A stretch of 64,000 nt of DNA from Streptomyces sp. TLI_053. GTDB taxonomy: Bacteria > Actinomycetota > Actinomycetes > Streptomycetales > Streptomycetaceae. The stretch spans positions 6,537,501 through 6,601,500 of the forward strand of contig NZ_LT629775.1 of assembly GCF_900105395.1 (NCBI RefSeq). Direction: 5' to 3'. Positions 14,137 through 15,507 of the stretch are shown in pieces; positions within the stretch are counted from its first letter, which is position 1, and every line of letters starts with the position of its first letter. A program made the position numbers and the translations under genes. The notes beneath the pieces were generated by a model that was not told the DNA's origin, ran no database searches, and saw only the letters and a program-made list of their open reading frames with translations.

Positions 14137-15507
14137 ATGCCCCTGGCCGCTCCGCCCGCCGCGGCCCTGGCCGCCGACGTGCCGTCGGGGATCGACACCG
14201 GCGACACCGCCTGGCTGCTCGCCGCCACCGCACTGGTGCTGCTGATGACCCCGGGCCTGGCACTGTTCTACGGCGGCATGGTCCGCGCCAAGAGCGTGCT
14301 CAACATGATCATGATGAGCTTCGTCTCGATCGCGGTGGTCACCGTGGTGTGGCTGCTGGCCGGCTACTCGCTCGCCTTCGGCCCGGACGCCGGCGGCTGG
14401 GGCCTGATCGGCGGCCTCGACCACCTGGGGATGGCCGGGATCACGCCCGCCTCCGTCACCGGCACCGTCCCCACCGTGCTGTTCGCGACCTTCCAGCTGA
14501 CCTTCGCGATCATCACCGCCGCGCTGATCAGCGGCGCCATCGCGGACCGGGCCAGGTTCGGCGCCTGGGTGGCGTTCACCGCCGTCTGGACGCTGCTGGT
14601 CTATGTGCCGGTCGCGCACTGGGTGTTCGCGCCCGGCGGCTGGATCCTGGCCCGGCTGGGCGCGCTGGACTTCGCCGGCGGCACCGTGGTCGAGGTCAAC
14701 TGCGGGGCGAGCGGCCTGGCCCTGGCGCTGCTGCTCGGGCCCCGGATCGGCTTCCGCAAGGAGGCGATGCGCCCGCACAGCCTGCCGCTGGTGCTGCTCG
14801 GCGCGGGCCTGCTCTGGTTCGGCTGGTTCGGCTTCAACGCCGGTTCGGCGCTGGGCGCCAACGGCCTGGCCGCCTCCGCCCTGCTCAACACCCAGGCGGC
14901 CGGCTGCGCCGGGCTGCTCGGCTGGCTGCTGGTCGAGAAGCGCCGGGACGGCCACGCCACCACCCTCGGCGCGGCCTCCGGCGCGGTGGCGGGCCTGGTG
15001 GCGATCACGCCGTCCTGCGGCAGCGTCGACCTGCTCGGGGCCCTGGTGATCGGGCTGGCGGCGGGCGTGGTCTGCTCGTACGCGGTGAGCTGGAAGTTCC
15101 GCTTCGGCTTCGACGACTCGCTGGACGTGGTGGGCGTGCACTTCGTGGCCGGGGCGATCGGCACCGTGCTGATCGGCCTCTTCGCCACCGCCGCGATGAC
15201 CGGTGGCGCCACGGGACTGCTGCACGGCGGCGGGTTCGGGCAGTTGGGGCGTCAGCTGGTGGCGGTCGCCGCCGTCGCGGTCTACGCCTTCGCGGTCACC
15301 TACGGCATCGGGCGGGCGATCGAGCGGGTGATGGGTTTCCGGGCCGGGGAGGAGGACGAACTCACCGGCCTGGACCTCGCCGTGCACGCCGAGACCGCGT
15401 ACGATCACGGCGTCCTGGGCCACGGTGTGCTGGGGCAGGGGCCCGTCCCGGCCCGTCCCGCCACCAGTGCGCCCGCGCACCCGTCCGACAAGGCGTCCTC
15501 CGCATGA
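14137..15507 (+). CDS. amtB: Ammonium transporter with Glu at the first twin-His position
   Basis: Amt/Mep/Rh channel of 456 residues with about 11 membrane helices. The outer site and gate landmarks are present ([18 protein letters not shown]; Asp in DFAGG). The pore twin-His motif is altered: residue 186 is Glu (codon GAG at 14692-14694, context [10 protein letters not shown], where canonical AmtB has GGTVVHINAG), while the second His is kept (residue 335, [10 protein letters not shown]). Fungal Mep1-type transporters carry the same His-to-Glu change, which in that family alters the transport mode. The ATG at 14137 has GGAGG 5 nt upstream; the frame opens earlier at 14059. The gene overlaps glnK by ATGA, so the two are translationally coupled. 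GlnK would plug the pore when nitrogen is sufficient. Confidence 0.95.

Follow-up and report, generated by a model that had tools for sequence, protein, structure and literature searches.

What does it mean for a bacterial ammonium transporter to carry glutamate where the first of the two conserved pore histidines is expected? The question is raised by an amt gene of Streptomyces sp. TLI_053, located in the 64,000-nucleotide stretch of contig NZ_LT629775.1 (positions 6,537,501 to 6,601,500, forward strand) that was analysed here and is called the window below. In AmtB, two water wires carry the proton split from ammonium and are connected through His168 and His318 (PMC7447429). According to that eLife 2020 paper, the twin-His motif varies naturally only in some fungal Meps, where Glu replaces the first His (PMC7447429), and two papers give this fungal replacement as either the only natural variation or the only common case (PMC7447429; PMC3647058). 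Literature searches, with most subscription journals outside their scope, returned no report of bacterial Glu-type Amts; since natural variation is stated for fungal Meps only (PMC7447429), the bacterial form appears new to the literature searched. Judged from its sequence, the window protein is a member of a conserved and recurrent bacterial Glu-type Amt within the known family.

The gene and its pore residues

The open reading frame at 14137-15507 (+ strand) translates into a complete Amt protein of 456 amino acids. It matches the Amt profiles over its full length (TIGR00836, 446 bits against a cut-off of 343; PF00909, 398 bits over residues 1-399) and aligns with solved Amt, AmtB and Mep2 structures. 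Codon GAG at 14692-14694 (+) encodes Glu186. In a HMMER alignment with solved chains this residue occupies the column of E. coli AmtB His168, which holds Glu in the engineered AmtB H168E chain (2now) and His in chain 9cs5. The second position of the motif is kept as His335 (codon 15139-15141, +), and the protein thus combines Glu186 with His335 instead of the canonical pair of histidines.

Counted by hand on the HMMER alignment, the E. coli equivalents are H318 for His335, F107 for Phe123, F215 for Phe233, D160 for Asp178 and S219 for Ser237, so that the Phe gate and S1-site residues (F123, F233, D178 and S237) are all present. Among 128 Amt representatives His335, Phe123, Phe233 and Asp178 never vary, and 125 have Ser at position 237. 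At the position of W148 the window protein has Phe164, with Phe also found in 42/97 His-type and 22/31 Glu-type representatives. An earlier note on this DNA had read the Glu at the His168 position, the retained second His and Phe gate, and the correspondence with the fungal Mep1 type (Glu first, His second) from the letters alone, and all of these readings hold.

Close orthologues (82-100% identity) occur in 26 of 61 genomes of the genus, the window genome included, and Glu is found in 26/26. The GAG codon is therefore real and no sequencing slip. A sequencing or frame artefact is refuted by the same residue in the orthologues of the 25 other genus genomes that have one and in many other families.

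A canonical paralogue in the same genome

A search of the organism's own genome (9.9 Mb, one contig) found, besides the window copy, a single further Amt gene at C1:3690183-3691385, whose motif, GGTAVHINAG, is of the normal His type. The window gene is thus shown to be a paralogue of the genome's canonical AmtB and a second ammonium transporter. The canonical gene is followed by glnK and then by the gene for an 859-aa protein with GlnD_UR_UTase, HD and ACT domains, i.e. the amtB-glnK-glnD operon that the earlier note had suggested looking for elsewhere in the genome. The canonical protein (L001/L133) resembles the window protein in its 63% identity over the aligned part, its Phe gate, a glnK downstream and a GlnR-like site upstream. 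It differs in having His at 186 and Ala at 189, as against Glu186 and Cys189, and its glnK is followed by glnD, whereas the gene after the window glnK is not glnD but an alpha-amylase with a starch-binding domain.

The Glu-type Amt was never seen as the sole Amt of a genome. Of the Glu-bearing genomes, 101 were searched whole; each gave two or more Amt matches, and a His-type copy was read in 100 of them, the exception being G397, whose other Amt matches were not read. Conversely, 40/40 single-Amt genomes, listed by hand from the genus, phylum, family and class samples, are of the His type. At one locus (L299, G056:C1:5589000-5592000) the His-type amtB lies in two frames, 5589727-5590350 and 5590329-5591036, and the Glu-type copy is intact; the split may be an assembly error.

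Distribution and origins of the Glu type

Sampling was extended to 149 genomes of the phylum, 81 of the family and 148 of the class, together with 80 named loci, the residue being read from fetched loci only. The final set comprises 417 distinct Amt proteins with at least 360 aligned residues and no stops (shorter or stop-bearing stretches were dropped). At the first twin-His column 307 have His and 110 have Glu, with no other residue, and the second position is His in 417/417. The proportion 110/417 is not a frequency, because the loci are mostly best matches to the window protein. Best matches sampled from two further phyla (represented by a Chloroflexota and a Desulfobacterium record) gave 30 and 35 rows, every one with His. 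Plasmid-borne Amts gave no Glu either, with 10/10 His in 10 of 118 matching records, 8 of them from outside the actinobacteria. The earlier note's reading would have lost its ground had Glu been a trait of every streptomycete AmtB; that idea was rejected, the canonical copies read keeping His. A third streptomycete Amt type, having His with the unusual flank GGIVVHTTAG (L120, L122, L129, L131, L255 and L256), is placed by the 128-representative tree apart from the canonical AmtB as well as from the Glu-type group.

Two trees were used to follow the residue. The mixture-model tree holds 128 representatives (80% identity clusters) of 269 proteins, with the Glu/His column left out, and needs 7 His/Glu changes, each of them forced by starred branches; on a FastTree built from the full set of 417 proteins the number is 8. 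The tool cautions that the placement of individual long rows may be wrong. On the 417-protein tree the largest all-Glu group, by construction the largest Glu-only subtree and subtended by a node without printed support value, contains the window protein and 98 of the 110 Glu proteins. The matching group on the smaller tree takes in 22 of the 31 Glu representatives with an SH-aLRT of 91, under the 95 mark, and includes Streptomycetaceae, Mycolicibacterium, Prescottella, Amycolatopsis and families f58, f62, f70, f74 and f75; the Amycolatopsis protein stands apart from the main group on the 417-protein tree. Further Glu groups of 1-4 members each number six on the 128-representative tree and seven on the 417-protein tree. 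One of these is formed on both trees by a distant Amt of another family (L197, G068:C1:503500-507500), 50% identical, with Glu and Ser at i+3 (GGAVVEISSG), from a genome with five Amt matches.

Forcing all Glu rows together, a constraint whose group is set by the residue and not by the tree, costs 429 log-likelihood units (p-AU 1.7e-36), and one origin for all Glu-type proteins was rejected on this result. Gains of Glu are the simplest direction because the outside relatives read are His; the counts by themselves do not distinguish gain from loss, and the residue could also be moved by gene conversion between neighbouring genes. Glu thus characterises an entire actinobacterial paralogue group and apparently originated on several occasions, points that the earlier note did not make.

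The substitution tends to be accompanied by a second one. Residue 189, one helix turn past Glu186 (i+3; Cys in the window protein, codon 14701-14703, +), is Ser or Cys in 108/110 Glu-type as against 61/307 His-type proteins, and is the most different column after 186 itself. Over 7 independent pairs, an average of 5.1 had Ser/Cys together with Glu and 0.3 had the reverse. The pairing is suggestive only, since the median p is 0.0625 and column 189 was picked as the most different one. Of the other columns tried (184, 187 and 188) none paired with Glu, and 188 tended the opposite way.

These patterns bear on whether the Glu could be tolerated drift in a duplicate that is redundant and functions in much the same way as canonical AmtB. 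AmtB H168E and H168D still support growth on low ammonium in work cited in PMC3647058, and in the genomes searched a Glu-type gene always comes in addition to another Amt gene. Drift is nevertheless a very improbable account: two bases have to change to turn a His codon into one for Glu, yet the residue is retained across the 98-member group and reappears in 6-7 others, with no Asp, Gln or other residue at the column in 417 proteins. The Ser/Cys at i+3 that accompanies Glu, and the conservation of upstream sites in close relatives, argue in the same direction.

Upstream array, glnK and neighbouring genes

Upstream of the gene lies a GlnR-box-like array of half-sites at 13992-14058 (+), regarded from motif conservation as putative GlnR sites. 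Five 5-base half-sites follow one another in 11-bp steps (GTGAG 13992, GAAAC 14003, GTCAC 14014, GCAAC 14025 and GCAAC 14036), with two more at 14043 and 14054 (both GAAAC); they were located by eye and partly by motif scan. GlnR boxes have been described as gTnAc-n6-GaAAc in S. coelicolor and GAAAC-n6-GTATC in S. avermitilis, among other forms (PMC10704036). The window array consists mostly of GAAAC-like half-sites and is not a perfect gTnAc-n6-GaAAc. Among 47 mutually related Glu-type genes (identity at least 76%, at least 200 upstream bases available), 46 are preceded by GAAAC-N6-GAAAC, in which the N6 spacer takes 30 different forms. In base shuffles two motif forms together, GAAAC-N6-GAAAC or GTnAC-N6-G(A/T)AAC, reach 0.1%. 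Either form is present in 10/60 upstream regions of other Glu-type genes and in 80/222 of His-type genes.

Positive control of amtB operons by GlnR is described for mycobacteria, and three boxes are bound at the S. coelicolor amtB (PMC10704036). From the motif pattern we infer that the window operon would be under GlnR control in nitrogen shortage. The array suggests induction in nitrogen shortage, not in an ammonium surplus from polymers. Under such control a low-affinity carrier would be somewhat paradoxical.

An M4 metalloprotease gene (11235-13856) and an alpha-amylase gene with a starch-binding domain (16073-17851) flank the amt-glnK pair. At 18 genus-sample loci, out of 19 extended orthologue loci, the protease is present in 17 and the amylase in 18. 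Six other loci, namely four named Streptomyces records with 4-kb flanks and, with 1.5-kb flanks, two loci from a different genus in the family, show a single weak protease match (36%). A general link between Glu-type amt and polymer use was rejected, given that these neighbours are mostly missing at the six loci. The earlier proposal that the transporter is used when polymers release much ammonium is not borne out, considering both the GlnR-like array and these flanks. Scans for sigma-70 promoters and terminators over 13800-16100 returned nothing, nor did Rfam at gathering thresholds over the whole window.

The amt gene is followed by glnK at 15504-15842 (+), which encodes a PII protein (PF00543, 111 bits) and whose ATG overlaps the amt stop, an overlap absent from the earlier reader's account. 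Translational coupling ties the window amt to this PII gene. The features of an AmtB-GlnK couple are all found: glnK lies directly downstream on the same strand, and Tyr51 is present in the T-loop. Across the samples, in counts that include repeats of one gene and some short loci, a downstream glnK was found in 101/138 Glu rows as against 173/214 His rows. A linked PII is common, not universal, since 37/138 Glu rows are without a downstream glnK; none was found for the main-group members examined from mycobacteria and rhodococci.

With its own glnK, the paralogue could be chiefly a PII-linked sensor or an exit route for ammonium, and not an uptake transporter. That the Glu-type Amt is never a genome's only Amt would fit such a role, as would the difference in signalling between fungal Mep2 and Mep1 (PMC7048316). 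In that same comparison the Glu type is the non-signalling one (PMC7048316), Pfam finds Ammonium_transp alone in the window protein and no signalling domain, and the GlnR-like sites suggest scavenging. A sensor or exit role is accordingly doubtful, and uptake is preferred in what follows.

Possible function

It is probable, by analogy with studied proteins, that the window gene encodes a Mep1-like second ammonium transporter of high flux and lower affinity, gated by its own PII and induced through GlnR in nitrogen shortage. GlnR would induce the operon in nitrogen shortage together with the canonical amtB. In the pore, a carboxylate-imidazole pair would bridge the two water wires and speed proton transfer. 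The Glu-His pore would then take up ammonium faster, electrogenically and with lower affinity than the His-His form, like Mep1 beside Mep2. When ammonium returns, GlnK would plug the Glu-type pore, which would matter more for a pore of high flux.

A faster, lower-affinity and electrogenic carrier is proposed by analogy with AmtB H168E, Mep1 and Mep2 H194E. In liposomes AmtB H168E gave a current of 22.28 as against 3.38 nA and a Km of 12.87 +/- 7.79 as against 0.8 mM (PMC9040831), values that carry a large error on the Km and belong to an engineered E. coli AmtB and not to the window protein. The variant showed no K+ current and kept methylammonium discrimination in vitro (PMC9040831). Yeast expressing it still failed to grow after 3 days on 1 mM ammonium and did better at lower concentrations, which the authors read as toxic influx (PMC9040831). 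The earlier note had mentioned a link of the change to altered specificity and mode of transport, and had proposed a functionally distinct, probably high-capacity transporter. Altered specificity is not favoured by the K+ and methylammonium results (PMC9040831). A distinct, high-capacity transporter is a fair inference by analogy because the engineered variant has the larger current and higher Km (PMC9040831). AmtB H168E (PDB 2now) has the same residue in the same column as window Glu186, together with high measured current and low affinity; it differs in being engineered and not natural, and its Ala171 corresponds to window Cys189.

The fungal proteins offer a natural parallel. In Mep1/Mep3 (ScMep1 E181) Glu likewise comes first and His second, and one organism has both this Glu type and a His-type paralogue, Mep2. 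Expressed in oocytes, Mep1 with its Glu transports electrogenically, whereas Mep2 with its His is electroneutral (PMC7048316). Mep2 H194E gave no current in oocytes, a system in which its authors state that no conclusion on this variant can be drawn; Mep1 with His restored is inactive (PMC7048316). ScMep1 further has Glu just before the second His (PMC9040831), whereas the window protein has Val334 there, is a bacterial Amt by sequence and is glnK-coupled, Mep1 having been compared by description only. Val334 in place of this Glu, together with the inactivity of His-restored Mep1, means that the Mep1 analogy may fail in detail.

The same substitution could act mainly on pH. Soil actinobacteria are exposed to wide pH ranges, and the Glu might chiefly shift the working range, allowing uptake where a His-His pore works poorly and not raising capacity. 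The pH optimum of Mep2 H194E does move towards that of Mep1, with Vmax also increased (PMC7048316). The large published effect on AmtB current and Km (PMC9040831) speaks against pH as the main effect, which is considered unlikely but the least so of the alternatives weighed, and a high-flux, lower-affinity carrier is retained as the preferred reading.

His-type and Glu-type copies side by side

Extended to the group as a whole, the proposal is that actinobacteria repeatedly duplicated amtB, often with glnK, that the first pore His of one copy became Glu, usually with Ser/Cys one turn on, and that a division of labour parallel to Mep2/Mep1 was reached between a scavenger of the His type and an electrogenic high-flux carrier of the Glu type, each often accompanied by a PII of its own. 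The balance tips only slightly in favour of this scenario. If it is true, the twin-His motif is a switch flipped by evolution and not an invariant, and nitrogen scavenging in many actinobacteria is suggested to run through two kinds of pore. Natural bacterial His/Glu pairs, in places side by side, provide a test of the motif's role in affinity, rate, charge movement and pH response.

His/Glu tandem pairs occur in 11 genomes (a Sinomonas genome with two records counted once, its pair read from L079); in every case the two genes share a strand and the His gene precedes the Glu gene. A glnK lies between the two genes in 9/11 and is absent from that position in 2/11; in 7 of the 9 pairs with glnK between, glnK also follows the Glu gene.

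Seven streptomycete genomes instead have a Glu-Glu tandem pair (L113 3564-6124, L114, L115, L116, L121, L125 and L254), for which a downstream glnK was not found. Their motifs include GGLPVEINSG and SGGTVVELSSG, and the products of such a tandem are possibly heteromeric.
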